In this document: piece after piece, positions 7,850 to 34,863 of the stretch
Layout of the letters: every line of letters begins with the position of its first letter
Position numbering within the stretch: the first letter of the stretch is position 1
Virus record (IMG/VR): IMGVR_UViG_3300037540_000125
Span: 1-36,887 of that record
Length of the DNA: 36,887 nucleotides
Reading direction: 5' to 3' (one strand)
Origin: a virus
Notes under the pieces: generated by a model
Told to the model about the DNA's origin: nothing
Database searches by the model: none
What the model saw: only the letters and a program-made list of their open reading frames with translations
Position numbers and translations under genes: made by a program

Positions 7850-7851
7850 GG

Positions 7852-9399: not shown

Positions 9400-9882
9400 C
9401 GATTACCCTCTCCGCTTCCTGGACCCAACGGCGAAACTCCTCGAACTCGAGCGCGTCGATCTCCGACGGCGAGAACCCGAACGGTTCCGACCGTCCGAGG
9501 ACGACGCATCCCGCCCAGATATCCGGCGGGACGAGGACCTCGAGGGCTATTCCTCCTCGTCGTCCCCCAGAGTCACGCCGAAAAAACCCGCGACGATCTC
9601 CTGAGCCTTCGCGAACTCGAGCGCCTCGATCTCATCGACGACGGAGGTCGGAACCCGGGCGGCCTTCGCGACGAGCGCGATTCCCTGCGAGACCTTTCCC
9701 TCGATCTTATCGAGGATCCGCATATCTCGGACCTTGAGGCCGTAGAACGTGAGCCGCTCGACGTCGGCCGCGTTCTTTCGCTCGACCGGCGTCGCGAGTT
9801 CGATATACGGCCGCCCCTCGGCGTCGACCTCCCACGCGGTCGCCTCCGGCTCGACTCCCTCGTCGCGTTCGTCCTCTTTCAC
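9353..9882 (-). CDS. Tail assembly chaperone, -1 frameshift fusion (gpE+E'/gp41-42 type)
   Basis: Frameshift product of about 176 aa. Residues 1-101 come from the chaperone reading frame. After a -1 slip at U UUU UUC (9586-9580) the ribosome would read 75 more codons to TAG 9353-9355. The extension contains PDIWAGCVVLGRSEPFGFSP and then DALEFEEFRRWVQEAERV, the style of second chaperone halves in Mu- and P2-like phages (helix with aromatic residues next to Glu). Conserved frameshifting in this position is well established for tailed phages. Production here is inferred. Confidence 0.75.
9547..9882 (-). CDS. Tail assembly chaperone, unshifted product (Mu gp41 / gpE family)
   Basis: 111 aa from GTG 9880-9882. 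This start overlaps the tail tube stop as GTGA and has GAGGAG upstream; the ATG at 10017 would lie inside the tube gene. 'VERKNAADVERLTFYGLKVRDMRILDKI' is typical of the E/41/14 tail chaperone family (in this family the helix 'ltlr.l.grdl..l' recurs). It would coat the tape measure during tail assembly. An acidic tail (GDDEEE) follows the slippery site. Confidence 0.88.
   Translation of the reverse strand: MKEDERDEGVEPEATAWEVDAEGRPYIELATPVERKNAADVERLTFYGLKVRDMRILDKIEGKVSQGIALVAKAARVPTSVVDEIEALEFAKAQEIVAGFFGVTLGDDEEE
9580..9586 (-). promoter_or_regulatory. Programmed -1 frameshift slippery site U UUU UUC
   Basis: In the chaperone frame the codons are GGT TTT TTC, giving the canonical heptamer T TTT TTC. 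G GGT TTT just upstream is a second heptamer of the right form. The -1 frame is open from here to 9353 and encodes a chaperone-like extension. The zero frame stops 31 bases after the heptamer. Confidence 0.78.
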
Positions 9883-10244
9883 GCGTTGATCTCCTCGGCC
9901 GATTCGCCGACGAAACGGACCGGGATCAAACCCTCCTCGGTTCCGGACTCGCCGGCGCCGGCTTGATTCGCGTTCCGGAGGATGATCGTCTTTCCGTTCC
10001 GGAGCTGAGCCGCACACGTCGCGCCTTCAGTCTGGAGGAGGGCGGCCTGATCGACGTCCGGACCGTCCCGGATCTCCAACTCCATAAAAGAGATTCCGGG
10101 CGCTTCTTTGAACCCGTGGTGACGATCGGCTCCCGTCAGTTCCTCCGAGATCGGGAGACCGAGCGAATAGGTGATATTTCCGACGACGTCAAACACGACG
10201 CCGTCGACGTCGAAGGCCCGGAGGCCGGCTCGAATACCGCTCAC
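9879..10244 (-). CDS. Tail tube protein (Mu gpM-like)
   Basis: 121 aa, a typical tube length. GTG start at 10242-10244 with GGAGG about 10 bases upstream. The sequence is beta-rich with 'GITYSLG'-type strands and a loop 'HHGFKEAPGISFMELEIRDG' that resembles the Mu-like tube family, in which 'GykE.p.vp.ie..l.d' is conserved. It lies between sheath and chaperone exactly as expected. The tube forms the inner conduit for DNA. Confidence 0.9.
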   Translation of the reverse strand: MSGIRAGLRAFDVDGVVFDVVGNITYSLGLPISEELTGADRHHGFKEAPGISFMELEIRDGPDVDQAALLQTEGATCAAQLRNGKTIILRNANQAGAGESGTEEGLIPVRFVGESAEEINA

Positions 10245-10270
10245 TTGTGACCCTCCTCGAGGGTTAGGGG

Positions 10271-11746
10271 TTAAGAGTTGAGGCGGAACTGGAGTTTCAC
10301 GCCCAGTTTCCGTAGCTGATTCGCGAGGTCGGGCGGGAGGAGGATATTCAGTTGATCCGGATCCGTTTCGTCCCGCTCGACGACGAGGTCCGCCTTGAAC
10401 TGAGAGACGTTCTCGACGTAGCCCGCGACCTCCCAGTCCCGGAAGATTGCGACCGCCTCCGCCGTCGCCCTCGAGGGCGTGATCGTCGCCTGACCGGGCG
10501 CGACGTTCGTCTCGTCGCCGACGAGTTTCGCGCGCGGGAATTTCGTCGCGAACCGCGTCCGGAACGTCGACCGGAGAAGCGAGAGCGTCAACAACGTATT
10601 GACGTTCAGGTAAGCGATATCCGGGAGCGCGAGCGCGTTCGTTTGCGAGTTCGTAATCATGCGCTGGATCCGGAGCGTATCGCCCTCGTCCGTGTAGAGG
10701 GTCGCTATTCCGTTGTGGAGAAGGGTGTCCTGTTCGCTCAGCGTAAACCGATCCTCCCGCCTCGAGGCGAGGATCCCGACGAGCGCGAGGGTTTGGAACG
10801 GACGCGCCGGATCGATATTCCCCTTTTGTGCGACCTGGGCGGCGGCCGCGGCCGCGACGTCGTTCGCGGAGTTCGGGATCCCGGGCTCGACGCCGACGAC
10901 CGTCACGTGAGGCGAGTTCCGGAGCCCGCCGGCCGTTACGAGATTGGTCACCGTCTCAGCGACGCCGCCGAACGCGTGCCCGTCGTTCTGGCGGATCGGT
11001 CCCCAGCGGTCGGCGAGTTCGGTCTCGAGAGCCGTATAGTCCGCGGCCTCGAGCTGCGGGAACACGAGGATGTGATATCGATCCTCGCCGATCGCCGTGA
11101 TCACGTCCGATAGCGTGATCGACCCGACGCCCGGAACGGAGTTGGCGACCGCGATCGCGAGATCCGACGGGAGCGCCTCGCCTACGTTGTGATTAAGGAC
11201 GACCGGGCTCGCGTCCGCGTCGCGTCCGGCGGCCTTCGCCTCGAGCGTGACGACGCCGACGGCGCTCGTCGCCGAGAACGGGGAATCCTGTTCGGCCTCG
11301 ACCGCCGCGGCGATCGCGGACGCGACCTCCGTCACCGATGCGCTATCGGCAACGGCCGCCGTAATCCGGAGCCCGCCCAGGTAGAGGTAGACCGTCCCCG
11401 CCGTGATCGCCGCGCCGGTACAGGTCAGCGTGTACTCCGAGGGCGTTCCGGCGCTCGTGTCAATCGAGATTTGCCAGGTCTCCGTGAACCGGTTGTTCGC
11501 ACGCCACGCGCGCGCCATGTTCGCGAGCGGCGACCCGGGGCCGTGATCGTTCCGCGCCTGATCGTCCGAGATCGAGAGCGTCGGAGTGAGCGCGGCGACG
11601 ACCGCGCCGGTGTCGTTCCTCGGCGCGATCAGGAGAGCGCGATAGGGTTCGACCTGGAGACCCTGGACGGCCTGGGAGGAGTCGAACTCGACAAATACTC
11701 CGGGGGTCCGGAGCGTTACGGGAATCTGATCGAAAGAGATCGTCAC
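10271..11746 (-). CDS. Contractile tail sheath protein (Mu gpL-like)
   Basis: 491 aa, GTG start at 11744-11746 behind AGGAGGAG. The N-terminus 'TISFDQIPVTLRTPGVFVEFDSSQA' is diagnostic for Mu-like sheaths. The central part contains 'DVITAIGEDRYHILVFPQLEAAD' and 'EAVAIFRDWEVAGYVEN' blocks that fit the subtilisin-like and C-terminal sheath domains. Its presence shows that the virion is a myovirus. The DUF2635 gene precedes it and the tube gene follows, the standard order. Confidence 0.95.
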   Translation of the reverse strand: MTISFDQIPVTLRTPGVFVEFDSSQAVQGLQVEPYRALLIAPRNDTGAVVAALTPTLSISDDQARNDHGPGSPLANMARAWRANNRFTETWQISIDTSAGTPSEYTLTCTGAAITAGTVYLYLGGLRITAAVADSASVTEVASAIAAAVEAEQDSPFSATSAVGVVTLEAKAAGRDADASPVVLNHNVGEALPSDLAIAVANSVPGVGSITLSDVITAIGEDRYHILVFPQLEAADYTALETELADRWGPIRQNDGHAFGGVAETVTNLVTAGGLRNSPHVTVVGVEPGIPNSANDVAAAAAAQVAQKGNIDPARPFQTLALVGILASRREDRFTLSEQDTLLHNGIATLYTDEGDTLRIQRMITNSQTNALALPDIAYLNVNTLLTLSLLRSTFRTRFATKFPRAKLVGDETNVAPGQATITPSRATAEAVAIFRDWEVAGYVENVSQFKADLVVERDETDPDQLNILLPPDLANQLRKLGVKLQFRLNS

Positions 11747-11749
11747 GGG

Positions 11750-11956
11750 TTACTCCTCCTGGGTATCGGGCGCGCGAGTCCGCGCGCGCGTTGCTTTCTT
11801 GGGTTCGGGCGGAGAGATCAATTCGCAGTCGCCGTCGATGATTCTCCGGCGCCAGTAGGTGTCGATCTCGACGCGCTCGCCGGCATCCTTCAGGACGCGA
11901 CGACTCCGCGGAAACACGACGCGTTTCCCGGCCTTCGGTTTGATCGTTTGCAGCAT
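11750..11956 (-). CDS. Small tail-region protein, DUF2635 family
   Basis: 68 aa from ATG 11954-11956 with AGGAG upstream; an earlier in-frame ATG at 12028 lies inside the tail terminator gene and has no RBS. 'IKPKAGKRVVFPRSRRVL' followed by 'ERVEIDTYWRRRIIDGD' matches the short DUF2635 proteins that precede the sheath gene in Mu-like phages (pattern 'vkPa.G..VrdP...l...G..V....yW.RRl.dGDv'). Its function is not established. The C-terminus is basic and Thr-rich. Confidence 0.82.
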   Translation of the reverse strand: MLQTIKPKAGKRVVFPRSRRVLKDAGERVEIDTYWRRRIIDGDCELISPPEPKKATRARTRAPDTQEE

Positions 11957-11964
11957 GACGGCTC

Positions 11965-12492
11965 CTAAGTAGAGAGATCGATCTCGTCGGTCGCCTCGAG
12001 GACGCCGTCCGCGATCGCGATATCCCATTGTGCGAGGAGGAGGTCGAGGTCGGCGAGCGTCGCCGGGTCGACGAAATCGCTCGTATAAATGATGTCGAAT
12101 CCGAGCCGGAGGGCCGCGAGCGTATACTTCCCCTCCCTCGAGGGTTCAGGCCGGAGCACGGTTACGAGTTCGCACTCGAGCACGGATCCGCCCAGGGTCT
12201 CGTCGACGGCGACGACGGCCTCGACCTGGGCGGCGATCACCTCGAGGACGTCGTCAAACTCCGGCTTGAACCGGGAGATTACGTCGACCCAGAGGCGGGC
12301 CGTGTGTCGATAGCTGCCGGGGCGCGCGTTGTACTCCTCGAGGGTCTCGTCGCCCGCGTAGACGAGGAGCGCCGGGAGGAGGACGACCTCGAGCGGGAAT
12401 ACGCGGGAGCGGTAGACCCGGTCGCCGGCGAGCGTCGTCGCGGTGAGCTGGCGCGCGAAATGCTCGCGGGCGACGAGGACGTCGAGCCCCAC
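11965..12492 (-). CDS. Tail terminator-like protein
   Basis: 175 aa, GTG start at 12490-12492, directly adjoining the head-tail joiner. The composition fits terminator proteins: an N-terminal helix, then strands such as 'RHTARLWVDVI', 'GSVLECELVTVLRPEP' and 'ALRLGFDIIYTSDF'. In lambda/Mu-type gene order the terminator lies between the head-tail joiner and the tail sheath/tube. It would cap the tube and connect it to the head. The assignment is by position and general form rather than a strong motif. Confidence 0.7.
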   Translation of the reverse strand: MGLDVLVAREHFARQLTATTLAGDRVYRSRVFPLEVVLLPALLVYAGDETLEEYNARPGSYRHTARLWVDVISRFKPEFDDVLEVIAAQVEAVVAVDETLGGSVLECELVTVLRPEPSREGKYTLAALRLGFDIIYTSDFVDPATLADLDLLLAQWDIAIADGVLEATDEIDLST

Positions 12493-12831
12493 CTAGACGA
12501 CCTCCAGCTCGAGGAGCGCGCCGCCTTGGCCGTCCGGCTGGACGCTCCGGACATCGTAGTCGACGCCGTCGAGGACGAGCCGCCCCCCTTGAGTCGGCCC
12601 GACCCCAACGGCGGCGACGAAATCGGCGAGTTTCACGCCCACGACCTCGGCGGTCGTGTCGACCGGGACGCCCGAGTCGAGGTCGACGGCGACGTGATCG
12701 CCTGAAAAGACGCCGACGATTGCGACGGCCGTCGCAGGGTCCGCGCCCGGAGGAGCGTATAGGAGGCCGCCGTGATCGAAACGTTCCGTCGTAACGCTCA
12801 GCACGCGATCGGCGAGATCACTCCACGCCAT
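12493..12831 (-). CDS. Head-tail joining protein (lambda gpFII-like)
   Basis: 112 aa, the size of gpFII. It has the expected pattern of a short helical start (WSDLADRVLSVTTERF) followed by beta strands: 'AVAIVGVFSGDHVAV', 'GVKLADFVAAVGVGPTQGGRLVLDGVDYDVRSVQPDGQGGALLELEV'. The last part resembles the gpFII-type 'G..l...g..y.V..v..dg.G...l.L'. It lies between the decoration protein and the tail terminator, matching the neck module. It would sit at the base of the portal. Confidence 0.78.
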   Translation of the reverse strand: MAWSDLADRVLSVTTERFDHGGLLYAPPGADPATAVAIVGVFSGDHVAVDLDSGVPVDTTAEVVGVKLADFVAAVGVGPTQGGRLVLDGVDYDVRSVQPDGQGGALLELEVV

Positions 12832-12879
12832 AACGGATGGAACGGCCGGAGGGGGAGCCAGCTCCCCCTCCGTCCGAGC

Positions 12880-13233
12880 CTAAATCTCGCCAGCGACCGG
12901 CGTGTCGTGGCCGAGGAGCACGCGGACGGTCGAGGTCCCGGAGGCCTCATCGCGCGTTGCGACGCCGCAGCGGTAATTCGCGGCCGCGGTGGCGTTGACC
13001 TCCTCCGTCGTCGCGTCGCAATAGGCGGGATCACCCTGGGAGAAGGTGGTCGTCGCCTCCTTCGTGAGGTCGAACTCGCCCTCCATCGCCAACTCGAGGT
13101 CCGCGGCGGCGGCGGCGTCGTGAGTCGCGACGCCGATCAGGGAGCCGATTCGCACGAGATCGCCGGACGACCGGCCGCCCGAGGGACAGACGACCGTCAG
13201 GACCTTTCCATTACCAACGAAATTCTTCGCCAT
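12880..13233 (-). CDS. Head decoration / DUF2190 family protein
   Basis: 117 aa. The start 'AKNFVGNGKVLTVVCPSGGRSSGDLVRIGSLIGVATHDA' is a clear DUF2190 signature ('G.vl....p.g.tsGd.v.vG.l.GVa'). The rest alternates short strands. Members of this family lie next to capsid genes in many Mu-, HK97- and lambda-like phages and are thought to decorate or stabilise the head. It follows the capsid gene with one small gene between. The ATG has AGGAG about 10 bases upstream. Confidence 0.87.
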   Translation of the reverse strand: MAKNFVGNGKVLTVVCPSGGRSSGDLVRIGSLIGVATHDAAAAADLELAMEGEFDLTKEATTTFSQGDPAYCDATTEEVNATAAANYRCGVATRDEASGTSTVRVLLGHDTPVAGEI

Positions 13234-13300
13234 TGAAATTCTCCTCTCGAGAATGTTTCAGGCCGCACGCGGAGCGCGGCGCGTTCACTGATAGATCCGA

Positions 13301-13318
13301 CGCCCTCGATCGAGGGCG
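13301..13318 (-). terminator. 18-bp perfect palindrome after the small head-region gene
   Basis: CGCCCTCGATCGAGGGCG is perfectly self-complementary and begins 5 bases past the stop of the 86-aa gene. It could form a tight hairpin acting as an attenuator or mRNA-stability element between capsid-region genes. No T-run follows on the minus strand, so simple termination is uncertain. Confidence 0.5.
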
Positions 13319-13322
13319 CGGG

Positions 13323-13583
13323 TTATTTCCTCCGGGAGCCCTTTCCTTTCGATTCCTTTTCCGGCGGCGACGCCGGCGGCGGCGTCGGCGGAGCCGAGGG
13401 CTCGGAGGCGGGCGGCGGCGGAGCCGAGCCCGTAGCGTCCTGGATCTCGATCTCTCCGGGAACCTTCCGGCGGAGGGTCTCGAGGACGTCGTCGATCACG
13501 TCGACCCAGTCCTCGGTTATTCGGAGCCGGCGGCCGGCGTACCGAACGAGGAGATCCCCTTTGCGGCTTCGAATGTTTGTCAT
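13323..13583 (-). CDS. Hypothetical head-region protein with proline-rich tail
   Basis: 86 aa. The first 45 residues are structured-looking and charged ('GDLLVRYAGRRLRITEDWVDVIDDVLETLRRKV'). The rest is a low-complexity Pro/Ala/Ser linker (PPPPASEPSAPPTPPPASPP) ending in a lysine-rich tail. It lies between the major capsid and decoration genes, each side bounded by a strong hairpin. I do not recognise the family; a minor head component or connector accessory is plausible from position only. Confidence 0.65.
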   Translation of the reverse strand: MTNIRSRKGDLLVRYAGRRLRITEDWVDVIDDVLETLRRKVPGEIEIQDATGSAPPPPASEPSAPPTPPPASPPEKESKGKGSRRK

Positions 13584-13613
13584 CGATCGACCTCCTCGAG
13601 GTTCGAGTTTTCG

Positions 13614-13643
13614 CGGCGCCCGGCATTGACGCGCCGGGCGCCG
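13614..13643 (-). terminator. Strong 11-bp hairpin after the capsid gene
   Basis: CGGCGCCCGGC and GCCGGGCGCCG form a perfect 11-bp stem around an 8-base loop, 13 bases past the capsid stop. A hairpin here is common after highly expressed capsid genes, as a partial terminator or 3' stabiliser. No U-run follows. Confidence 0.6.
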
Positions 13644-13656
13644 TGAGGTTCAGACG

Positions 13657-15675
13657 CTAGGCGCCGGCGCCAGTCACGCCGCCGCGGTAGTCGATCGCGC
13701 CGACCGCGAAGTCGAGCGAAATCTTGAACTCGACTCCGTCGATCTCGAAGCCGGCCCGGACGTCCGTCCGCGGACCCTCATCTCCGGCGAGATAGCCATA
13801 GATGTAGTTCGCGAGCTGGCTCGGATCCGCGAGCATGTAGAACCGCGTCCCGGTCAGGTTCGCGTCTCCGATCGCGGTCATCTCGCCCGCGAACGGGTTT
13901 ACCTCCGAGGCCTGGGTCGGCATGATCGCCGCGAGGAACGTCTTCGCGGCGACGACGCTCGTCGGAGAGACGAGAACGAAACGCGGAACGATGTTGAGTT
14001 TCAGCCCGTCGAGGCTCGTCTGGGCCATCATAAGCCCGAGACCCTCGCCGAGGAGAGCGTTACTCAACGCGCCGGCCGCCGTAATGTTCCCGTGTGCGGC
14101 GTTGTAGACGACGACCGTGTCCGAGAGCGCCGGCCCGAGACCGGCGCCCGCCGAGATACAGACGAGGAAAAACGTCGCGTTCTCGAAATCGGCGATCCGG
14201 CGGGCCGCCTTGGTGGCGAGGTTCGCAAACGCCGAAAGGTCGTCGTTCACGATCGTTTGACGCGAAAGCCCGATAATCCGCCCGTAGGTCGCGAGCGTGA
14301 CGGTCTCCGCGTTCTCGCCCATCGTTCCGTACTTGTACTCGCCGTGCTCATTCACCTGGAGAGGCACCGGGAAGTCTCCGCTCCGGTTGAACGTGTGCGG
14401 CCGGAAATCGTTGAACGTCTTTCGCTCAGCGATCATCCGATAGGTCGGCGCCGCCAGGGCGTACTCCGGGAGGAGAACCTTGTTCAACGCGTTGGCGAGG
14501 AGGAGCGGGAAATCGCTCGTGGTGTGGAGTGCGAGCTGGAGGATCCGAGTCCCGTCCCGCCGCACGTCGAGCCCCTGGTGCTTCCCGGTCCAGGAGAGCG
14601 CCTCGAGCGCGCACTCGAGGAGCGTCGTGTGGGCATACTGCCGCGCCGATTCCGGCGGATCGATCCGCCTCGCACGCGCGGCGATCGCGCTCTCCATCTG
14701 TTCTCGGCGCCAGTGACTCGAGTCCCTGTCGTCGCCGAATCCGATCTCATTCGTCGTTTTCGGTGCGCGACGCGCCCGCTCGTCGGCCGCCTCCGCGAGA
14801 GCCTGATCGATCGTCGTTCCGAGATTGATGTGACGCTGCGCCCAGACGGAGTCGAGCCCGTAATGCGCCGCAATTCGCTTCAGCTCGGCGGCGTGTTCTT
14901 TGTCGCGCTTGATCGTCGCCGCGACCGTCTCCTCCGCGGTCTCAAGTTCCTTCGAGTGGAGCGTTTCGTCGAAGTCGTTCTCTTCGATCTCGACGATCTC
15001 TCCGCTCTTGCCGTTGTCGGTGTCCGCCAGTAGGCGTACCTTGATTATCATTTCGTTTCCCCTTTGACGCGCATCGGCAAGAGCCTCCGCGCAGAAAGTG
15101 ACCGAGCACGGAGACGCCTCGCGCTCCCCCGATGCCTGGACCTGGGCGCCGGCGTCCGCCGGGACGGCGACGAGTGAAATCTCGTAGGGTTCCCAGGAGG
15201 TCGCGCGGAACCGTTTCCGCGGAGCGCCCTCCTCGGTCACCTCCTCGAGTTCGTGGAGATAGACCCCCATGCTTACGTTCTGAATCACCTTGTCCTCGAC
15301 GTCCTGCCAAACCGGCTCGACCTCGTCGCGCTTGGAAAATCGCACGCGCGCGCGAGCCATCCCGTCCGCGAGCCATGCTTTCTCGACGACGCCGAGGATC
15401 GCATTCACGCCGCGGTAGGTTCCGTGACTGTCGATCAGAGCGGCGCCGGCGTTGAGGCGCTCGAGGTTCGCGGCCTTTTTCGAGACCACGAACTCCAGCT
15501 CGAAAGGGTCGTCGAACATCGGGATCCGGAGGACCGGAACGCCGCTATAGAAAACGAGTTCGACCGTCCGCGTCTCCGAGTCGATCGTCGAGGCGTCGAG
15601 CGTGACCGATCGGAGGATCGGCGAGAGACTTACCTCCTCCGTCTTTCGATTAGGCCGCTTGGGAATCTTCGCCAT
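13657..15675 (-). CDS. Prohead protease / major capsid fusion protein
   Basis: 672 aa from ATG 15673-15675 with GGAGGAG upstream; an ATG at 15858 would give an arginine-rich extension that is out of frame with the portal gene and is rejected. Residues about 20-180 are an HK97/U35-type protease, with a likely catalytic His in DSHG (84), a Ser in NVSMGV (135) and the conserved WEPYEISLVAVPAD block (161-174). A charged helical linker (about 225-345) leads into the capsid domain (350-672), whose FNDFRPHTFNRSG and ENAETVTLATYGRIIGLSRQ blocks match Mu gpT-like capsids. Such fusions are known; the protease probably removes itself and the linker during maturation. The start overlaps the portal end by 26 bases. 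Confidence 0.92.
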   Translation of the reverse strand: MAKIPKRPNRKTEEVSLSPILRSVTLDASTIDSETRTVELVFYSGVPVLRIPMFDDPFELEFVVSKKAANLERLNAGAALIDSHGTYRGVNAILGVVEKAWLADGMARARVRFSKRDEVEPVWQDVEDKVIQNVSMGVYLHELEEVTEEGAPRKRFRATSWEPYEISLVAVPADAGAQVQASGEREASPCSVTFCAEALADARQRGNEMIIKVRLLADTDNGKSGEIVEIEENDFDETLHSKELETAEETVAATIKRDKEHAAELKRIAAHYGLDSVWAQRHINLGTTIDQALAEAADERARRAPKTTNEIGFGDDRDSSHWRREQMESAIAARARRIDPPESARQYAHTTLLECALEALSWTGKHQGLDVRRDGTRILQLALHTTSDFPLLLANALNKVLLPEYALAAPTYRMIAERKTFNDFRPHTFNRSGDFPVPLQVNEHGEYKYGTMGENAETVTLATYGRIIGLSRQTIVNDDLSAFANLATKAARRIADFENATFFLVCISAGAGLGPALSDTVVVYNAAHGNITAAGALSNALLGEGLGLMMAQTSLDGLKLNIVPRFVLVSPTSVVAAKTFLAAIMPTQASEVNPFAGEMTAIGDANLTGTRFYMLADPSQLANYIYGYLAGDEGPRTDVRAGFEIDGVEFKISLDFAVGAIDYRGGVTGAGA

Positions 15676-17143
15676 TTCCGTTCTCCTCCTCCGACGTCGT
15701 CGAGGTCTCCGACCCGCTCGCCGTCGCCGGGTTACAAGTGAGCACGACCCCGCGTTTCGCGAGGTCCTTTTGCCATTTCTCGATCTCGTCGAGCTGTTCC
15801 GAGGCGGTCCAGCCGCGCCGGCGGACGATCTCGTCCCACGTGTCGAAGCCGGCGCCACAGGATGCGATCTCGGCTTGCGTTTCCTTTAGCGGATCGATCA
15901 GCTCGAAACGCGGAGGCGTCCAGTCGATCGACGCGCGCGCGCCGGCGTTCGGCGTCCTCCCGCGGGCCTCCTCGAGGAATCGGAGCCAGATCCGGTTACA
16001 CACCTGGGGGATGTGGAGGAGCCATTGATCCTGTTCGACGCGGCGACGGAACTCGACGAGCCCAGCCCGATAGCTTGAATAATTGACCTGAGAGAGATCG
16101 CCGGTCATTAGCTCGTATGGCACGCCGTAACCGGCGGCGATCGCGCGCAATCCGAAGCGTTGGAAATCGGCATAACCGCCGGAGGCCTTCGGCTCGGCGA
16201 CCTTGACGTCCTCGCCGGCGCGCATGTATTCGATCATTCCAGGATAGAGCGTCTCGATCCGTCCCTCGGTATCGGTCGAGACTGGACCGAGGCGCGCCGC
16301 ACTCGTCCCCTCTGGAGAGGTGACAAACGCCGCTAGACACGCCTCGATTTTCTTTCGCATCACCTCGGCGTCGTCGTAGTCGTCCAGGCCGCGGGCGCGC
16401 AGCATCACCGGCGCGAAATCCGTCACGCCGCGCGACTGACCAGCGCGCAGTTTGCGAAATAGGTGGATCACGTCCTCGGCGGCGACGCGGTCACTCTGCG
16501 CGCCCCTCGCTCCGAACCCAGAAACGGAGAACGCGTCGCCCGGGTGATTCCGAAAGAGATAATAGGCGACGACGCGGCCGAACGCGTCGCGCTCGAGGCC
16601 GTAGCTAATCCGATTCCCGTTTTTCTCGACGCCGTTCTTCGTCGTATCGATAAAATCCGGCTCGAGAACGCGGAGTTTCAGCGGGACGCCGTCCCTATCC
16701 GATATCGGCGACGGGATAAATCGGATCAAGGCTTCGCCCGACTCCGAACGCGTCCGCTCCGTGAGCGCCTGAATCCCGTAGAGGTCGTGATCCCCGTCGG
16801 CGTCGCACTCGTCGACGAATTGATCCCAGGATTTCCGAAGCGCACGACCGCTGACCTCGGCCGTAATCCCCGTTCCGATTGTGTTCGCGACCTTGATCCC
16901 GAGGGCGCTCGAGGCGTAGGGATTGTTTCGCACGAGATCGCGAGAGCGGTCTCGGAGCACTTCGAGCGTTTTATGGACCTCCGCGTCGGCCGATCCGCTC
17001 GCCGTGATCCATCCCTCGGTAGTCCGGTCCTTCCGTCCCCCCTCGTAGCTGAGCGACTCAGTCAATAGGCGCGCTTGAACGCGACGGAAGCCGGCGGCAG
17101 GAGAGGCCCAGGAGATCGCGCGATCGAGCCAGTTCCGGCGCAT
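15650..17143 (-). CDS. Portal protein (lambda gpB family)
   Basis: 497 aa with GGAGG seven bases ahead of the ATG. The N-terminal 'RRVQARLLTES.SYEGG' and 'DLVRNNPYASSALGIKVANTIGTGI' blocks are diagnostic of lambda-type portals. The 'RIIPSPISDRDGVPLKLRVLEPDFIDT' and 'GYGVPYELMTGDLSQVNYSSYRAGLVEFRR' blocks also fit. It forms the dodecameric ring through which DNA enters the head. It follows gpW and overlaps the protease-capsid gene. Confidence 0.95.
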   Translation of the reverse strand: MRRNWLDRAISWASPAAGFRRVQARLLTESLSYEGGRKDRTTEGWITASGSADAEVHKTLEVLRDRSRDLVRNNPYASSALGIKVANTIGTGITAEVSGRALRKSWDQFVDECDADGDHDLYGIQALTERTRSESGEALIRFIPSPISDRDGVPLKLRVLEPDFIDTTKNGVEKNGNRISYGLERDAFGRVVAYYLFRNHPGDAFSVSGFGARGAQSDRVAAEDVIHLFRKLRAGQSRGVTDFAPVMLRARGLDDYDDAEVMRKKIEACLAAFVTSPEGTSAARLGPVSTDTEGRIETLYPGMIEYMRAGEDVKVAEPKASGGYADFQRFGLRAIAAGYGVPYELMTGDLSQVNYSSYRAGLVEFRRRVEQDQWLLHIPQVCNRIWLRFLEEARGRTPNAGARASIDWTPPRFELIDPLKETQAEIASCGAGFDTWDEIVRRRGWTASEQLDEIEKWQKDLAKRGVVLTCNPATASGSETSTTSEEENGNGEDSQAA

Positions 17144-17144
17144 C

Positions 17145-17354
17145 TTACCTCCTCGACGTTGCGACGCGACTCGTTCGCGCGTCGGCCTGGGATGGATTCA
17201 AGTAGTCGTCCATTTCCGCGAGAACGCTGCGCATCGACTCGAGGGACGCATACTTGACGCGCTTGTCGCCGTAGCCCGTCTCGAGGACGCCGCTCTTAAT
17301 ATTGGCGGCGAGCGTGTCGCGCTCCTCCTGGGTACAGGTAAATAACGACGCCAT
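17145..17354 (-). CDS. Head-tail joining protein gpW
   Basis: 69 aa from ATG 17352-17354, five bases after GGAGG and just past the terminase stop. An upstream ATG at 17393 lies within the terminase gene and is less likely. 'CTQEERDTLAANIKSGVLETGYGDKRVKYASLESMRSVLAEMDDYL' has the lambda gpW pattern of a helix, a short beta hairpin (GDKRVKYAS) and a second helix. Lambda gpW is 68 aa, nearly the same. It joins the portal side of the head to the tail. The order TerL-gpW-portal is that of lambda. Confidence 0.9.
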   Translation of the reverse strand: MASLFTCTQEERDTLAANIKSGVLETGYGDKRVKYASLESMRSVLAEMDDYLNPSQADARTSRVATSRR

Positions 17355-17356
17355 TT

Positions 17357-19246
17357 CTACCTCCGGACCCAGTCCCGTTGTGATCCGACCCAATCGGCGC
17401 GGCGCTTGCGCGACCGCGGCGACGAGGTCGGCGCCGCCGGTAGCGGTGGCGCCCCGCCTTGCCCGACCGGCGCCGAAAAGATCGGCCGCGAATCGAGCGC
17501 TTGAACCTCGGCCTCGAGGTCGAACCCGTTAGCGCGGAGCCCGCAAAGAGCCGCGACCGCATAGACCGCACAGTCGAGCGGCTCGTTTCGGATTCCCGCG
17601 CGTCGCAGCTCCCAGTATCTTTCGACGAACCCGCGCCGGTTCGTTCGCGTCGTAACCCGTTCCGAGGTCAACCCCTCGAAAAAATCGTCTCCGAGCTGTT
17701 CGTGAAAGTGGACGAACCCAGGCCCGGGCTCCGCGAGCGCAAGCCGCCCGTATATCTGATCCTTCGCGGGATCGACCCGGATCGGCCAGAGCGGAACCTT
17801 CGTCGTTATCTTACTTGGACGCCTCGGCCAAATCTCGCCGGAGCCGTGAGATCCCTTGACCGCGAACACGAACGCGCGTCCGCCGTCCGGCGTCACTCGC
17901 CGGAAACGCGGGCCGCAGAAATCATAGGCCGCCTGGGTATGATGCCCGCCCGTGTCAACGCACGCGCCGCGGACGTAATCGACTCCGCCCGCTTCCCTCG
18001 GCCAGGGCGTCAAGAGCCACCGATCCAGCTCATCCCAAGTTGCTAGGACCGAGGGATCGCCAAATAGGATCGAATGCGCGATCAGCCACGATTCCTCGGC
18101 GTGTCCCCATCCGTAGACCGAGCCCTCGATCCGATTGTCCTGGACGTCGATCCCCGCCGTTAGGAGCGCCACGGGAGCGGGGACCGCGAGGCTCCCCTCG
18201 ACGATCGGATAGGGTTCGCGGCGCGCTTTTAGTCCGGTGTCGTCGACCGTCGTATATTGCTCATCCCACCACTCGGAGAGAACGGTCGTTTTGAAAACTT
18301 TGATCTCCTCCGGGTTCCCCTGGGCGTTGACCCAACGCCGGACGAGTTTCTCGAGCGAAACGTGAGCGATCCCGAGGGCGGAGATTCGGAAGCCCGCGAG
18401 TCCGGAGAAATCGGCCGTCGCCACATAATCCCCGCGTTCGCACGCCCGCCAGCGTTCGACCTCGTCCAACTCCGAACCACAGTGGAGGCAGGCATAAGTC
18501 GCCGTTTCGGGGAGGTGATTCCCGCCAGAGTCCTTCCGCCATTGAACGTTTTCATACCAGTCCGGAACGTGGGTCGCGTCGCAATGTGGGCAACGGATCG
18601 TCCACTCGCGCTGATCGCTCCGCTCCCATAGACGCCACGACCTCGAGGCGTTACGGATCCCGGGCGACGTCGCATAGACCTTGACCGAGTTCCAATACGA
18701 TTCGAGGCGGTTCAACGCCAGCGCGAGCGGGTCGCCTTCGGTCCCCGCGGAGGCGCTCCATCGGTCCAGCTCGTCGAAGAGTCCGACGCGTTTCGGCGAC
18801 ATTGAGAGCCCGCCCGCGCTGTTCGATCCGACGAGCGTCAGATCGCCGCCGGCGAACTCTTTCTCGAGGATCGTATTCCCCGAGTCACGGCTCCGCGCCT
18901 CGCGGACCTTCCCGCGGAGCGCCGGCGTCTCGCGGAACATTCCGGCGAACCGTTGTTTCGAGAGTTTTTTCGCCATGTCGAGGGAATACGTAACGACGAT
19001 TTGCGACGCCGGATCGCTGTCGATGTAGTAACCGCTCGCGTTCAAGAGAATTTCGGTTTTCCCGCCGCGTTGCGACGGCCCGATGTAGACGACGCCGTCC
19101 GCGTTCGCGGGATCCGTGATCGCCTCGAGGACCGGCCTTTGAAACACGTCGGAGCGCCACGGGCCAGGCCGCGAGCTAGTCCCGTGCGGAACCATCCGAC
19201 GCGCCTCGGCCCATTCGTGGATCGTTTGCCGCGGTGGCGGCCGCAT
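17357..19246 (-). CDS. Terminase large subunit, GpA family
   Basis: 629 aa. It has a Walker-A-like GPSQRGGKT (56-64) and a Walker B VGLFDEL (154-160). A zinc-ribbon pair follows, CPHC (219-222) and CLHC (253-256). The nuclease part begins near TAGIDVQD (D367), has VDTGG (D431) and ends with NEPLDCAVYA (D558). The segment GSVYGWGHAEESWLI closely parallels lambda GpA. It is the packaging ATPase and the nuclease that cuts the genome ends. The frame is open upstream into the small-subunit gene, so a slightly longer N-terminus is possible; the ATG at 19246 is the conservative choice. Confidence 0.96.
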   Translation of the reverse strand: MRPPPRQTIHEWAEARRMVPHGTSSRPGPWRSDVFQRPVLEAITDPANADGVVYIGPSQRGGKTEILLNASGYYIDSDPASQIVVTYSLDMAKKLSKQRFAGMFRETPALRGKVREARSRDSGNTILEKEFAGGDLTLVGSNSAGGLSMSPKRVGLFDELDRWSASAGTEGDPLALALNRLESYWNSVKVYATSPGIRNASRSWRLWERSDQREWTIRCPHCDATHVPDWYENVQWRKDSGGNHLPETATYACLHCGSELDEVERWRACERGDYVATADFSGLAGFRISALGIAHVSLEKLVRRWVNAQGNPEEIKVFKTTVLSEWWDEQYTTVDDTGLKARREPYPIVEGSLAVPAPVALLTAGIDVQDNRIEGSVYGWGHAEESWLIAHSILFGDPSVLATWDELDRWLLTPWPREAGGVDYVRGACVDTGGHHTQAAYDFCGPRFRRVTPDGGRAFVFAVKGSHGSGEIWPRRPSKITTKVPLWPIRVDPAKDQIYGRLALAEPGPGFVHFHEQLGDDFFEGLTSERVTTRTNRRGFVERYWELRRAGIRNEPLDCAVYAVAALCGLRANGFDLEAEVQALDSRPIFSAPVGQGGAPPLPAAPTSSPRSRKRRADWVGSQRDWVRR

Positions 19247-19271
19247 TCCGCGGAGCGCCTTTTCGAGACTG

Positions 19272-19781
19272 TTACGGACTCGCGGCTCGAGGTCCTCGAC
19301 CGCGTCCGGGACGGGCGCGCGCGCGCGCTTTGTCCGCCGTTTCGCTGAGTTCGTGGAGCGCTTGATCGACCGCGCCGTCGACGATTTTCTGGCAGCCAGG
19401 GACGCTCCCCTCTACGGCCAGCGCGGGCGCGGTCCGCGTGCCGATCGCTTGTAGTCGCGAGCTGACCGCGGTCGCGAGGGCGATCGTCGCGCGATCCATT
19501 GCGTCCGGGAGCACGAGATCGCCGCGCGCGAGGGCGTTCTTTAGTTCTTGTCCGTCGGCCTGTTCTTTCGCGAGCCGAGCCCGCTCCGCCGTGAGGTCCA
19601 GGCCGCCGATTCCAACTAGCAGCGGGAGCGCCTCGCGCGGCGCGTACCAGACGGTACGGCCGTCTTTCGCGATCGGTTTTAGGCCGTTGAGGCGTTTCCG
19701 GACGGTCCTCGGGGTTCGGCCGGTCAGCTCGTGGAGTTGACTGATCGAGAGTCGAGAGAGATCCGTTTTATGTGTCGGCAC
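19272..19781 (-). CDS. Terminase small subunit (Nu1-like)
   Basis: 169 aa, GTG start at 19779-19781. The N-terminus 'LSISQLHELTGRTPRTVRKRLNGLKPIAKDGRTVWYAPREALPLLVG' is a winged helix of the lambda Nu1 type, including the recognition helix and the wing-like 'DGRTVWY'. A central 'AERARLAKEQADGQELKNALARGDLVLP' is a charged helix typical of Nu1-like proteins. It would bind the cos site and recruit the GpA subunit encoded just downstream. The RBS is weak. Confidence 0.88.
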   Translation of the reverse strand: MPTHKTDLSRLSISQLHELTGRTPRTVRKRLNGLKPIAKDGRTVWYAPREALPLLVGIGGLDLTAERARLAKEQADGQELKNALARGDLVLPDAMDRATIALATAVSSRLQAIGTRTAPALAVEGSVPGCQKIVDGAVDQALHELSETADKARARARPGRGRGPRAASP

Positions 19782-19896
19782 TATCGCTGCCCTATGGGGG
19801 TTCCCACACTGGCGCGAGCGAATGCCTTCGCGTTACCCGTTCCTTTCAACGCCAGGAAGGACCCGTAATAGTGGGGGGTGTTAGAGGTCCGGGGTC
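19782..19896 (-). other. Gap before terminase genes; candidate cos/late promoter region
   Basis: 115 bases without a gene, directly upstream of Nu1/GpA. In lambda-like phages the cos site lies here. I see a small hairpin (GCGAA TGCC TTCGC near 19818) and runs of G/C, but no sequence that identifies cos or a promoter with certainty. Confidence 0.35.
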
Positions 19897-24478: not shown

Positions 24479-25269
24479 TGAGGGATCTCGCGATAGATCG
24501 GGGAGAGTTCGACGCCGCGAGCCGCCTCGCGGCCCAGAGAGAGGAGCCGCGAGCGCGCCGTCGGATTCCGATCGCGGAGCGCCTTGAGGTGAGCCTGGAG
24601 ATCCTCGAGCGTCACCTCCGGCCCCCAGGCCTCGAGGTCGACCGGGACCTGGGCGGAGCGCGGGAGCGGCTCGAGGGCCGCGACGTGAACGACCTCGGCC
24701 TCGAGGAGATAGATCGTCACAAGGCGCGCCATGAGACCCGCCTCCGCGAGGTAGCCCTCGAGGCGCCGGCGTGAGCGGGCGACGGCGCCGCGGACGCGTT
24801 TCGGCGTCCAGCCCGTCCCGGGTGACGGAAACGCCTCCGGATCCGCGGCTCCGATCTCGCGCGCGAGGACGGCGACGTCGTCGTAGGACCGATCGCTCGC
24901 GAGATAAAGGCCGTAGACCCAGGTCTCCGACTCCGGGAGCCGTTCGATACACCTCGAGAGATCGGCGCGGATCACGGCCGACCGATCGGCCGTCGAGGCG
25001 GACGCGCGCGGGATTGTAATCGTCCCTTTCACGACGGCCTCGAGCGAAAACCGCCACGGTTCCCCGCAACGCCGGCAGCGGACGACGAACCCTCCGCGTT
25101 TCGCGCCGACCTCGTGATAGGTCTCGCCGTCGCAGCTCGCACACGACCGCGCGGGAACGCGGCCTACCATCGCGAACGGATCGAGCGCCGGGACGCTCTC
25201 GTCGCGTTGAGTGAGCCGCCACCATGCGCGGACGGCGTCGTCCGGGTGATTGTATCGGCGGACGTTCAC
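24475..25269 (-). CDS. Zinc-ribbon protein with sigma-70 region 4-like helices
   Basis: 264 aa from GTG 25267-25269 (GTGA overlap with the gene before). Two C-x-x-C knuckles, CASC (43-46) and CRRC (65-68), form a zinc ribbon. Residues about 103-178 look like sigma region 4: 'RCIERLPESETWVYGLYLASDRSYDDVAVLAREI', a loop, then 'WTPKRVRGAVARSRRRLEGYLAEAG', where the last helix would be the recognition helix. The C-terminal third is helical and unassigned. It could act as a phage transcription factor for late genes. The sigma-4 similarity is by pattern, not by strong motif. Confidence 0.65.
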   Translation of the reverse strand: MNVRRYNHPDDAVRAWWRLTQRDESVPALDPFAMVGRVPARSCASCDGETYHEVGAKRGGFVVRCRRCGEPWRFSLEAVVKGTITIPRASASTADRSAVIRADLSRCIERLPESETWVYGLYLASDRSYDDVAVLAREIGAADPEAFPSPGTGWTPKRVRGAVARSRRRLEGYLAEAGLMARLVTIYLLEAEVVHVAALEPLPRSAQVPVDLEAWGPEVTLEDLQAHLKALRDRNPTARSRLLSLGREAARGVELSPIYREIPQ

Positions 25270-25592
25270 TCCTGAGCCTTGATCAGGACGCCGAACTGTT
25301 CGCGTACCGTCGACAAGAGGACCGCGGCGAGGAGGTCGGTCGAATCGGCGAGGAGGTTCGCGGTCGACGAACCGATAGCCCCTTGCCGTTCCGCCTCGGA
25401 AAGATAATTCCGGAGGTCGATCAGCTCGACGTAGGCCTCGAGGAGGGGAGGGTGACCTTTCCACGCGTCACCGTAGCGCGAGCGCCCGTCCTCCCAGCGC
25501 GCGGCCTGAGCGTCGGGAAGCGTCATTTTCACGAACTCGAGGGCGCGCTCGAGTGTGTCCATCCGTTGCGCGCGTTTCAGATTGCGGGGCAC
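25266..25592 (-). CDS. Hypothetical helical protein, possibly MazG-like
   Basis: 108 aa, GTG start at 25590-25592 with AGGAGG seven bases ahead. The centre 'GRSRYGDAWKGHPPLLEAYVELIDLRNYLSEAERQG' recalls the 'ygd.w......e...EL.D..nYl' pattern of small all-alpha NTP pyrophosphatases (MazG/dUTPase-like helices). Metal-binding Glu and Asp would be those in 'EAYVELIDL'. It overlaps the next gene as GTGA. The assignment is tentative. Confidence 0.55.
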   Translation of the reverse strand: MPRNLKRAQRMDTLERALEFVKMTLPDAQAARWEDGRSRYGDAWKGHPPLLEAYVELIDLRNYLSEAERQGAIGSSTANLLADSTDLLAAVLLSTVREQFGVLIKAQE

Positions 25593-25613
25593 TCCTGGAC
25601 CTCCTGGGCGCGA

Positions 25614-25976
25614 TTACTCCGCGCCGTTTCTGATCGGGTGGAGCGTGCCCGGGATCTCTTCCTGGACCGGTTCCGGCTGGACCTTGAGACCGCCCTCCCG
25701 CCGGAAGGCCGACCGCATGATCGCCTTCGGCTTCGGGAGTTTCGGCCGGAGCGCGCACGCGGTGACGTGCAGCGTCCGATCCGACGGTTCATAAATCAGC
25801 TCGACCTCGAGCGGGATCGTCGCGAACACCCGTCCGGCTTTCGTAGCGAGCCGAGCGTGATCGTCGAAGGCCTTCAGGACCTCGTGGATCCGTTCTTGAA
25901 ACTGCTCCTCGAGGACGCCGTCGCACACGGAGCCGAGTGTGAGGTCCTCGAGGTTCGCGTCGATATTTCCGGTCAT
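25614..25976 (-). CDS. Hypothetical protein downstream of the O-like gene
   Basis: 120 aa from ATG 25974-25976 behind AGGGGAG; an ATG at 26126 lies inside the O-like gene. The first 50 residues are helical (LEEQFQERIHEVLKAFDDHARLATKAGR), followed by strands ('VFATIPLEVELIYEPSDRTLHVTACALRPKLP') and a Pro-rich end. In lambda the helicase loader P follows O, but I see no P, DnaC or helicase motif here. Function unknown. Confidence 0.6.
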   Translation of the reverse strand: MTGNIDANLEDLTLGSVCDGVLEEQFQERIHEVLKAFDDHARLATKAGRVFATIPLEVELIYEPSDRTLHVTACALRPKLPKPKAIMRSAFRREGGLKVQPEPVQEEIPGTLHPIRNGAE

Positions 25977-25995: not shown

Positions 25996-27045
25996 TTAAT
26001 CAGCGACCGCCGTCTGACCGTCGCCGTAAAACTCGACCTCGAGGCCCTTCGCACGGAGCGCGGCGCGATAGTCGTCCTCGCCCGGGAACCGCCTCGCGTA
26101 ACGTCTCTGAAAATCCTTGCGAACACTCCGAACGACGCTCAACGCCTCGAGCGTCCGCTCGCTCGGAGGAGGCGGCGGCGGTTCGCGGGCGACCTCGAGG
26201 ACCGGGAGCGGGGCTCTCACGCCGGCGACGAACGGCGGACGGCGACCGGACGCGATCGCCGCGTCGAACGCGTCCAGGTAGTCGTCCCGGGACGCGCCGC
26301 AAATTGTCGGGAGCGTGAGCCTCCGCACGGGATCAAATCCCTTCCCGTGCTTCTCGTGGCGCACCATAAAACCGTGAACGAGGAGCGCGCCGAGGATCTC
26401 CGGGCGGCGTTCCGGATAGACCTGGGCGACCTCGAGGAGGAGCCCGGACCGGCGCGCGGTGAGACGCGCGGGAACCTGGGCGCCGTAGGCCGCGAACGCC
26501 GCCCGGGTCCGCGTCCAGCCCTCTTCGATTTTCCGGACGACGAAGTCGACCTGAGCCCGCGGCCTTTCTTTCTCTTCTTCTTCTTTCTTTCCTCCTAGTA
26601 TGGAACCCCGGGCGTAGACGCCCTGGGTTTTTCCCCCCGATCGGACGTAGACGCCCGGGGTTATAGAACCCCGGGCGTAGACGCCCTGGGTTTTTCCCCT
26701 CGTCCGGGCGAGCTGGCGGGCGTTGCTCGTGTCGCCGACCTCCCAGGCCTCGAAATCCTTCGCGATCGAGATTCGGGCACTCCGGCCGACGCTATCTCCG
26801 CGGCGGACGACCCCCCAGGCCGTGAGGTCAGCGAGCGCGCGGCGGACGGTGCGCTCCTCGAGCCCGGTATCGCTCACAAGGTCCGCGATCGAGATCAGCG
26901 CGGAGGAACGCCGCCAGCCGAACGTCCGGCGGACGACGGCGAGGACGACGGCGACGTGAGCCCCTGGGAGTCGCGCGGCGGTCAAGGCCTCGAGGAGCGA
27001 GTTCGCTAGTCGCGTAAACCCCTGTTCGAGTTGCACGTCCGCCAC
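25996..27045 (-). CDS. Replication initiator, phage O-like, containing the putative origin
   Basis: 349 aa from GTG 27043-27045 with AAGGGGGG upstream; an earlier ATG at 27222 lies inside the Cro-like gene. Residues about 5-95 form the O-type winged helix: 'LEQGFTRLANSLLEALTAARLPGAHVAVVLAVVRRTFGWRR', 'ISIADLVSDTGLEERTVRRALADLTAWGVVRR', characteristic of phage O/DnaD-like initiators. Residues 116-150 are a repeat linker (GKTQGVYARGS twice, GVYVRSG between) followed by KKEEEEKE. The C-terminal half is helical and charged, as for an O domain that recruits a helicase. The repeat linker DNA resembles lambda ori. Confidence 0.82.
   Translation of the reverse strand: MADVQLEQGFTRLANSLLEALTAARLPGAHVAVVLAVVRRTFGWRRSSALISIADLVSDTGLEERTVRRALADLTAWGVVRRGDSVGRSARISIAKDFEAWEVGDTSNARQLARTRGKTQGVYARGSITPGVYVRSGGKTQGVYARGSILGGKKEEEEKERPRAQVDFVVRKIEEGWTRTRAAFAAYGAQVPARLTARRSGLLLEVAQVYPERRPEILGALLVHGFMVRHEKHGKGFDPVRRLTLPTICGASRDDYLDAFDAAIASGRRPPFVAGVRAPLPVLEVAREPPPPPPSERTLEALSVVRSVRKDFQRRYARRFPGEDDYRAALRAKGLEVEFYGDGQTAVAD
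26563..26699 (-). other. Putative replication origin (iterons plus purine tract) inside the O-like gene
   Basis: Three copies of CGTAGACGCCC (26613-26623, 26646-26656, 26676-26686) lie 30-33 bases apart. The outer two sit in a dyad GGGCGT-AG-ACGCCC and in identical 34-bp blocks (26603-26636 and 26666-26699); the middle one is imperfect. Next to them is a 34-base pure pyrimidine run on the plus strand (26563-26596), purine on the coding strand. This order, iterons then an A-rich purine tract within the initiator gene, is that of lambda ori. Confidence 0.7.
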
Positions 27046-27069: not shown

Positions 27070-27099
27070 GCCGGCGCGTGGGTTCAACCCGCGAGCCGG
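27070..27099 (-). terminator. Hairpin at the 3' end of the Cro-like gene
   Basis: GCCGGC arms enclose a second stem CGCG(T)GGGTT/AACCCGCG around a single C, overlapping the Cro-like stop codon. It lies between the regulator and the O-like gene, a position like lambda tR1. There is no U-run, so attenuation rather than full termination is the more likely role. Confidence 0.45.
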
Positions 27100-27365
27100 C
27101 GCGGTCCTTTCCGTCGGCGTTGCCGGCGCGTGAAGAACTGGCGGAGAAACCGCAACGTCGCGGCGTCCTCTGGGCTCGTCGGAAACTGTTCGGGCTGGAG
27201 GGCGCCCTCGGCCGCACGGCATAGGCGCGCGACGCTCGAGAGCGAGATCGAGCGCCCGCGGCGGGCTTTGTTGACGACCGGCTGAGAAACGCCCGCGGCG
27301 GCCGCGATTTCGGTCTCCGGCTTGCCGGTCGATCGCGTCCAGTCGTCGAAGGCCTTCCCGGTCAC
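27084..27365 (-). CDS. Cro/XRE-type HTH regulator, possibly leaderless
   Basis: 93 aa from GTG 27363-27365. Residues about 14-50 form an XRE HTH: 'GKPETEIAAAAGVSQPVVNKARRGRSISLSSVARLCRAAEG'. A short helical tail follows. No RBS precedes the GTG, but a perfect TATAAT ends seven bases before it, so transcription should start at the first base of the codon, giving a leaderless mRNA as for lambda cI from PRM. It heads the replication block and is followed by O, so by position it is the Cro/CII counterpart. A palindrome GGTGATCACC overlaps its promoter. Confidence 0.83.
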   Translation of the reverse strand: MTGKAFDDWTRSTGKPETEIAAAAGVSQPVVNKARRGRSISLSSVARLCRAAEGALQPEQFPTSPEDAATLRFLRQFFTRRQRRRKGPRRLAG

Positions 27366-27400
27366 GCCGGCATTATAACGGCGGTGATCACCTCCGCCAG
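27366..27400 (-). promoter_or_regulatory. Leftward promoter with operator palindrome
   Basis: On the minus strand: -35 candidate CTGGCG (27400-27395), 17-base spacer and -10 TATAAT (27377-27372), a perfect match to consensus. The palindrome GGTGATCACC (27383-27392) sits in the spacer. Elements CTGGCGGAGGTG and GCCGTTATAA of this promoter recur, inverted, at the rightward promoter. Confidence 0.72.
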
Positions 27401-27431
27401 GGTTCCGCCTCCAGGCGCTCGAGGTCGGCCT
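27400..27431. repeat. 32-bp direct repeat, copy 1
   Basis: An exact 32-bp copy of 27492-27523, 92 bases apart, within the noncoding control region. The unit begins GGGTTCCGCCTCCAGG and ends GAGGTCGGCCT. The two copies flank the TTACAC-TAG-GTGTAA operator and a GCGC-rich stretch. Confidence 0.85.
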
Positions 27432-27472: not shown

Positions 27473-27487
27473 TTACACTAGGTGTAA
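27473..27487. promoter_or_regulatory. Operator-like dyad TTACAC-TAG-GTGTAA
   Basis: A perfect 6+6 dyad around TAG, in the centre between the divergent promoters and between the two 32-bp repeats. Length and spacing fit an HTH dimer site. The probable binder is the Cro-like protein or the rightward winged-helix protein. Confidence 0.6.
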
Positions 27488-27491
27488 TGAT

Positions 27492-27523
27492 GGGTTCCGC
27501 CTCCAGGCGCTCGAGGTCGGCCT
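27492..27523. repeat. 32-bp direct repeat, copy 2
   Basis: Identical to 27400-27431 over 32 bases; the copies diverge immediately after (CCCC versus GGGG). Together with copy 1 it frames the operator region. Confidence 0.85.
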
Positions 27524-27545: not shown

Positions 27546-27588
27546 TTGCGGCCCTCTATCACGGCCGTTATAAACACTGGCGGAGGTG
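27546..27588 (+). promoter_or_regulatory. Rightward early promoter
   Basis: TTGCGG (27546-27551), 17-base spacer, TATAAA (27569-27574). Start of transcription would be near 27581. The shared element CTGGCGGAGGTG (27577-27588) follows and contains the GGAGG RBS of the first gene, so a protein bound here would block both promoter and ribosome. Confidence 0.65.
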
Positions 27589-33939: not shown

Positions 33940-34863
33940 CTAGCTACAACACGAATCAGTGAGGTCCGCGCATTCCGCGCACGTTCCTAGACCTAGACCC
34001 GTGCAGCACGGCCACGGTTGGCCCGAGCTAGTGCAAGCGTCGCTACCATAATTACTCTCGCGCGTCGCGCCGGTCGCGTCGCCGTAATAACCGCACAGGA
34101 CGATCTCCTCGATCTCGACTCGCGTCAGAACTTCATCGCGATACCAGCACTCATGCGAAAGCCCGTTGTAATCCCCGCCCTTTGACTCGTTGGCCCCGAT
34201 CACGAAATCGTCGGCGTTGCCGGTTGGATCGTTGCCTGAATCGCAACCCGCGTTGCAGGCGTCGCCGCCGTTGATATAGGCCTTGATTGTCTGAGTGCTA
34301 CTACCGTCATAAGTCACCGCCCAGTGATACCACGAAGTAGAGCCACCAAATATCGGAGTTTGCTCGATGCCGTCGTTAACCTCGGCGTGAAATGCGCCCG
34401 TCGCAAGCGTCTTGAACTCGTAGTTATCTTTGTCGTCCTTACTCATTACCATGTCGTTAGCGATATTATCGGGGTTGATCCAGCAGCCCGCACTAAAATC
34501 GATCGCCTCGAACGCGTTCATCTCGCCGGAGCCGTCGCTCGCGTAGAAATAATCATTGCTGTTTTGGTGATCTGCCCCTTGAGAGCCCGAGGCGCTACCA
34601 GCGGGGCCGCTCGCGTAGGCCCAGTTCCCCACCCACGTGAGGCTATCGTTAGACGAGTCCGCGACACAATTGTCCGCTTGCGCCGTGCTCGACGAGCTAT
34701 CGTCGAAAGTAACCCAGCACCCGAGCGCGGCGGTGTCCGAGCTGTAATCGTAACCCGGCCCGGGCGGCGTCACGTCCGCGCGGCGAGGCCAAATCGGCGC
34801 GACCTGGAGGAGCGCGAGGAGCGCGAGCGCGAGCGTGAGACTACGGGACGTCTTGACAGTCAT
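33940..34863 (-). CDS. Secreted LamG/concanavalin-like lectin protein
   Basis: 307 aa, overlapping the end of the upstream gene by 23 bases. It has a signal peptide (MTVKTSRSLTLALALLALLQ, then VAPIWPRRA). About residues 45-258 form a LamG-like jelly roll: 'SAGCWINPDN', 'DNYEFKTLATGAFHAEVNDG', 'TSWYHWAVTYDGSSTQTIKAYINGG', 'DFVIGANESKGGDYNGLSHECWYRDEVLTRVEIEEIVLCGYYG', a classic LamG-3 pattern. The last 30 residues hold eight Cys (CTSS..CC..C..C..CCS). GC content is visibly lower than in flanking genes, suggesting later acquisition. It probably binds a glycan; its place on virion or cell surface is unknown. Confidence 0.8.
   Translation of the reverse strand: MTVKTSRSLTLALALLALLQVAPIWPRRADVTPPGPGYDYSSDTAALGCWVTFDDSSSSTAQADNCVADSSNDSLTWVGNWAYASGPAGSASGSQGADHQNSNDYFYASDGSGEMNAFEAIDFSAGCWINPDNIANDMVMSKDDKDNYEFKTLATGAFHAEVNDGIEQTPIFGGSTSWYHWAVTYDGSSTQTIKAYINGGDACNAGCDSGNDPTGNADDFVIGANESKGGDYNGLSHECWYRDEVLTRVEIEEIVLCGYYGDATGATRESNYGSDACTSSGQPWPCCTGLGLGTCAECADLTDSCCS

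Follow-up and report, generated by a model that had tools for sequence, protein, structure and literature searches.

In phage lambda, gene O itself contains the inverted-repeat iterons to which dimers of the O protein bind; the DNA is bent, and the adjacent 40-bp AT-rich region then opens (PMC5043065, PMC7466680). In the Bacillus phage SPP1, the origin oriL lies in gene 38, and both its direct repeats and its AT-rich unwinding element are found within the initiator gene (PMC6316719). The locus described here is located in an IMG/VR record of 36,887 bases, the whole of which was analyzed and is referred to as the window. Like ori-lambda and the origins of Stx phages, it combines an initiator of the Phage_rep_O family with dyad iterons in the linker codons that follow the winged helix, and, as in lambda, an A/purine-rich unstable stretch lies directly downstream of the iterons on the coding strand. 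In contrast, lambda possesses four iterons of about 18–19 bp at a pitch of 20–24 bp with gene P next door, whereas the window possesses three iterons of 26 bp at pitches of 30 and 33 bp, facing half-sites that form a perfect 28-bp inverted repeat, and no recognized P gene. The proposal in a preliminary description that the phage uses the same solution as ori-lambda is supported for the in-gene dyad iterons and the unstable purine-rich stretch after them, but not for the pitch. SPP1 differs further in that it encodes a loader (gp39) and a helicase (gp40) of its own and has another origin, oriR, at a separate site, whereas neither a second site cluster nor a loader was found in the window. Another comparison is offered by L037 (IMG/VR contig 3300025769_003527), a GC-rich O-family gene with GC-rich dyads (four sites of the TACCCCC-N4-GGGGGTA type), in which, as in the window, the dyads are followed by a tract of purines only whose translation is rich in K and E. 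Its half-site is nevertheless different, and its dyads measure 16–20 bp and are spaced by 26, 33, and 24 bp. Based on these comparisons and the analyses below, the array is very probably the replication origin of the phage, of the lambda type and embedded in the disordered linker of an O-like initiator.

The phage and its O-like initiator

The phage is uncultivated, is known from its sequence alone, and has a GC content of 66%. Its genes encode a terminase, a portal, a fused head/protease protein, a tail sheath, a tape measure, baseplate proteins, and a tyrosine integrase, a set that identifies it as a temperate, contractile-tailed phage. All recognized structural genes to the left of the O-like gene are on the minus strand. 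A second IMG/VR record, L010 (IMGVR_UViG_3300037450_000082), matches window positions 7360–19837 with 99.99% identity across 12.5 kb and, as judged from this identity, represents the same phage from a different sample; the O gene is absent from that record.

The initiator gene occupies positions 25996–27045 on the minus strand. Counted from the GTG codon at 27045, the product has 349 amino acids, and the mechanical open reading frame extends to 27222. The protein matches Phage_rep_O (PF04492, the lambda O family) with an E value of 9.6e-17 and 61.7 bits against a Pfam cut-off of 28.7, and its PHROG matches are annotated as replication initiation O-like. The domain order is an N-terminal winged helix, a disordered linker, and a C-terminal domain. 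In the structure model, the winged helix (residues about 8–105) has a pLDDT of about 95, the linker (residues 120–162) has a pLDDT below 50, is predicted to be disordered and coincides with the repeats, and the C-terminal domain is poorly predicted. A fold search with this model returned generic dimeric MarR/ArsR-like winged helices and nothing more specific, and a PDB sequence search with the initiator gave no matches. In the collections searched, neither protein searches nor exact iteron searches in IMG/VR turned up a close homologue of the gene.

Directly upstream of the O-like gene, a minus-strand gene at 27084–27365 encodes a small helix-turn-helix protein (HTH_3, E 0.0017, below the Pfam cut-off), which by its position is a candidate for the place of a Cro/CII-like regulator. 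No match to lambda P (PF06992), DnaC/IstB (PF01695), or DnaB (PF03796) was found anywhere in the record. A diverged helicase loader may be encoded in it, and the helicase could possibly be recruited through the C-terminal domain of the initiator, through the product of an unrecognized small gene at 25266–25976, or by a host loader.

Iterons and dyads in the linker codons

Three copies of the iteron CGTAGACGCCC are present on the plus strand at 26613–26623, 26646–26656, and 26676–26686, as the preliminary description had reported for a spacing of 30–33 bases; the 21-mers that contain them start at 26609, 26642, and 26672 and are separated by 33 and 30 bp. The full dyad GGGCGT-AG-ACGCCC, also noted there for two copies, is exact in two of the three, and the middle copy reads GGACGT-AG-ACGCCC. 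Both strong dyads can be extended to 26 bp, over which 11 of 12 positions pair (AACCC-n-GGGCGT-ct-ACGCCC-n-GGGTT). Read directly from the sequence on the minus strand, these are iteron A at 26667–26692 (center 26679.5) and iteron C at 26604–26629 (center 26616.5), the latter being nearest to the purine tract. Iteron B lies between them at 26637–26662 (center 26649.5) and shares their core; its half-site at 26651–26662 is intact and the opposite half is degenerate. Iterons A and B face each other with half-sites that together make up a perfect 12-4-12 inverted repeat of 28 bp at 26651–26678, which reads ACGCCCGGGGTT-N4-AACCCCGGGCGT. The half-site AACCC[C/A]GGGCGT occurs five times, always within 26604–26692, and no further site was detected elsewhere in the phage at 0–1 mismatch. 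The strong dyads A and C are 63 bp apart, which corresponds to six helical turns at 10.5 bp. Lag analysis of the array revealed no hidden pitch of 22–25 bp; lags of 30, 33, and 63 alone stand out. Exact searches of IMG/VR for the iterons or the 28-bp dyad yielded no usable relative, and the sole match to an iteron pair, L009, was rejected as an unrelated tail-fiber-like gene with peptide repeats.

The array lies in frame within the minus-strand PF04492 gene, and the placement of the repeats and the purine tract in the linker of an O-type gene was thereby borne out. The linker peptide encoded by the iterons and the purine tract is GGKTQGVYARGSITPGVYVRSGGKTQGVYARGSILGGKKEEEEKERP, corresponding to residues about 116–161 counted from 27045. 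Synonymous shuffles that kept the peptide and the codon usage of the gene gave a marginal excess of direct repeats (p about 0.06), whereas the dyads were matched in none of 3000 shuffles for one choice of stretch (p 0.0003) and gave p 0.0018 for a second choice. The protein sequence accounts for part of the DNA repetition, but not for the dyads.

The purine tract and local stability

Next to iteron C, a pure purine tract of 34 nt on the coding (minus) strand at 26563–26596 is the candidate DNA unwinding element; on the plus strand the same run of pyrimidines reads CCTTTCTTTCTCTTCTTCTTCTTTCTTTCCTCCT. This tract, likewise announced in the preliminary description, is by far the longest of its kind; elsewhere in the phage such runs of purines or pyrimidines reach at most 14 nt, and the longest run in 200 first-order Markov genomes was 25, so that none reached 34. 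The least stable 40-mer of the O-like gene starts at 26563 and is among the least stable 0.04% of the phage, and the AT content at the tract is 67% over 30 nt in this phage of high GC content. The tract encodes GGKKEEEEKER. The suggestion that the odd peptide repeats and the KKEEEEKE stretch follow from DNA function is supported, as the relatives have peptide repeats that are specific to each family, with a K/E-rich stretch after them, and the linker is predicted to be disordered, which implies that its peptide is little constrained. The K/E-rich peptide that follows the repeats recurs across the O family and is a coding by-product of the purine tract. A GC-skew switch, which had been expected near 26.6 kb, was not seen there, and the cumulative GC-skew minimum is at 18913. 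The cumulative purine-skew minimum, at about 27504, coincides with the switch between leftward and rightward genes and not with the origin.

Survey of O-family genes

Owing to the lack of a close homologue, a broad set of O-family genes was assembled from IMG/VR, from a single phylum of genomes, and from annotated phages, of which 84 remained once redundancy was removed. Conserved motifs of the N-terminal domain served to retrieve the relatives, and the sample is therefore non-random. Iterons were sought with a simple finder (16-mers, at most 4 mismatches), which sometimes adds a spurious distal copy, and each gene was compared with 50–100 synonymous shuffles, for which p values are coarse. 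By this method, which recovered the annotated lambda iterons, 71 of the 84 genes carry an in-gene iteron array after the winged helix beyond synonymous-codon shuffles, and a significant dyad excess was found in 67 of the 84. In 46 of 77 genes, against 7.3 expected (p 1e-27), the start of the gene's least stable 40-mer falls between –10 and +60 nt relative to the end of the last iteron, with an offset of +10 in the window and +5 in lambda. Across the family, instability and the excesses of AT and of purines are each greatest 0–20 nt past the last iteron. Iteron sequences vary from gene to gene, and their position and plan are constant. Among pitches of 17–26 bp, 56% are not multiples of three, which argues that selection there acts on the DNA and not on the peptide. 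The survey thus indicates that carrying iterons and a melting tract within the initiator gene is the rule in the O family and not a lambdoid peculiarity.

Two linkers carry very long perfect dyads (13-1-13 in L145 and 11-5-11 in L075), from which iteron architecture appears to vary widely in the family. A minority of genes, among them L004, L063, L075, and L128, gave no significant array of in-gene iterons when assessed by direct repeats.

The window departs from its relatives in pitch, with 30 and 33 bp only against 17–26 bp, and its putative binding sites are approximately one DNA turn further apart than theirs. Apart from one exception, every gene with a significant array includes a pitch of 17–26 bp (single-gene pitches outside this range are to be read with care, given the spurious distal copies of the finder), and in 70 of 77 the pitch adjoining the melting stretch measures 22–25 bp. 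Other GC-rich members (L037, L107, and L108) also contain single gaps of 33 bp, which places the window geometry at the edge of the distribution but not without parallel. The pitch of about 20–24 bp that is typical of lambda is not known to be essential.

Interpretation of the array

The sequence shows that the gene belongs to the O family and carries dyad iterons beside a stability minimum, in a layout shared with most O-family genes. Because the window follows this plan of in-gene iterons and an adjacent unstable tract, an origin of the lambda type bound by O dimers is the best explanation. We infer that the initiator binds the array, that melting follows, and that the origin fires. In the proposed mechanism, dimers of the N-terminal winged-helix domain would bind the dyad iterons and could stack along a single face of the helix. 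This complex may bend the DNA and help to melt the adjacent 34-bp purine tract, at which the host replicative helicase could be loaded. Several features count against a lambda-type origin, namely that there are only three iterons, one with a degenerate half, that the direct-repeat excess is marginal, that the pitch is 30/33, and that no loader or helicase match, no GC-skew switch, and no close relative was found. A distinct O-origin geometry, with 12-bp half-sites that alternate in orientation approximately every 15 bp, one iteron per three turns instead of two, assembly of the initiator on the same face at a longer pitch, and no phage loader, is put forward tentatively, as a possibility that we regard as somewhat doubtful.

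The repeats could instead represent expansion of a repetitive linker peptide, with the DNA repeats and the purine tract as side effects of GC-rich codons and a K/E stretch. The pitches of 30 and 33 are both multiples of three and hence peptide repeats as well, the direct-repeat excess over shuffles is marginal, and L009 illustrates that arrays without origin function exist. This explanation is nevertheless improbable, since the dyads far exceed synonymous shuffles and a peptide does not need palindromes, since the linker is predicted to be disordered, and since members of the O family repeatedly combine dyads with an unstable tract in this position, in many cases out of frame. The same family-wide layout would be left unexplained if the hairpins acted in RNA, either as two plus-strand terminator-like stems with T runs or as mRNA structure controlling O translation. 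A terminator scan does list GGGCGTAGACGCCC followed by TGGGTTTTTC twice on the plus strand, and both strands fold strongly (z –4.1 and –4.4), but the extended stem takes up most of the T run, no Rfam match was found, and the stems are antisense to O with the structural genes on the left all on the minus strand, which leaves no obvious client for a terminator; such a role is very unlikely.

An array of operators for the initiator or another regulator, serving autoregulation and not initiation itself, is comparably hard to credit. Dyads would suit any dimeric winged-helix protein, and the fold of the initiator resembles MarR-type regulators, but no promoter-like site was found nearby when one was looked for, and the array adjoins the part of the gene with the lowest stability, an arrangement shared by most O-family genes, that of lambda included. 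The lambda-type origin thus remains the favored reading and gives a concrete origin candidate for an uncultivated, GC-rich, contractile-tailed phage. Furthermore, the O-gene linker could be used to locate origins in metagenomic phages, and the range of pitches constitutes a natural experiment on the allowable distance between initiator dimers.

Candidate divergent control region and right end

Near the right end of the window, a minus-strand gene at 33940–34863 encodes a Laminin_G_3 domain (concanavalin A-like lectin/glucanase, E 1.7e-12), and its product is possibly a receptor-binding or structural add-on. Between the leftward and rightward genes, a perfect 32-bp direct repeat, GGGTTCCGCCTCCAGGCGCTCGAGGTCGGCCT, is found at 27400–27431 and 27492–27523, 92 bp apart; these copies are candidates for operators or an early control region. 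Two adjacent pairs of 16-nt inverted arms with 94% complementarity, at 27373–27404 and 27558–27588, bracket this region (TTATAACGGCGGTGAT.../...ATCACGGCCGTTATAA), and a palindrome that resembles a repressor operator, TTACAC-TAG-GTGTAA, lies within it at 27473–27487.
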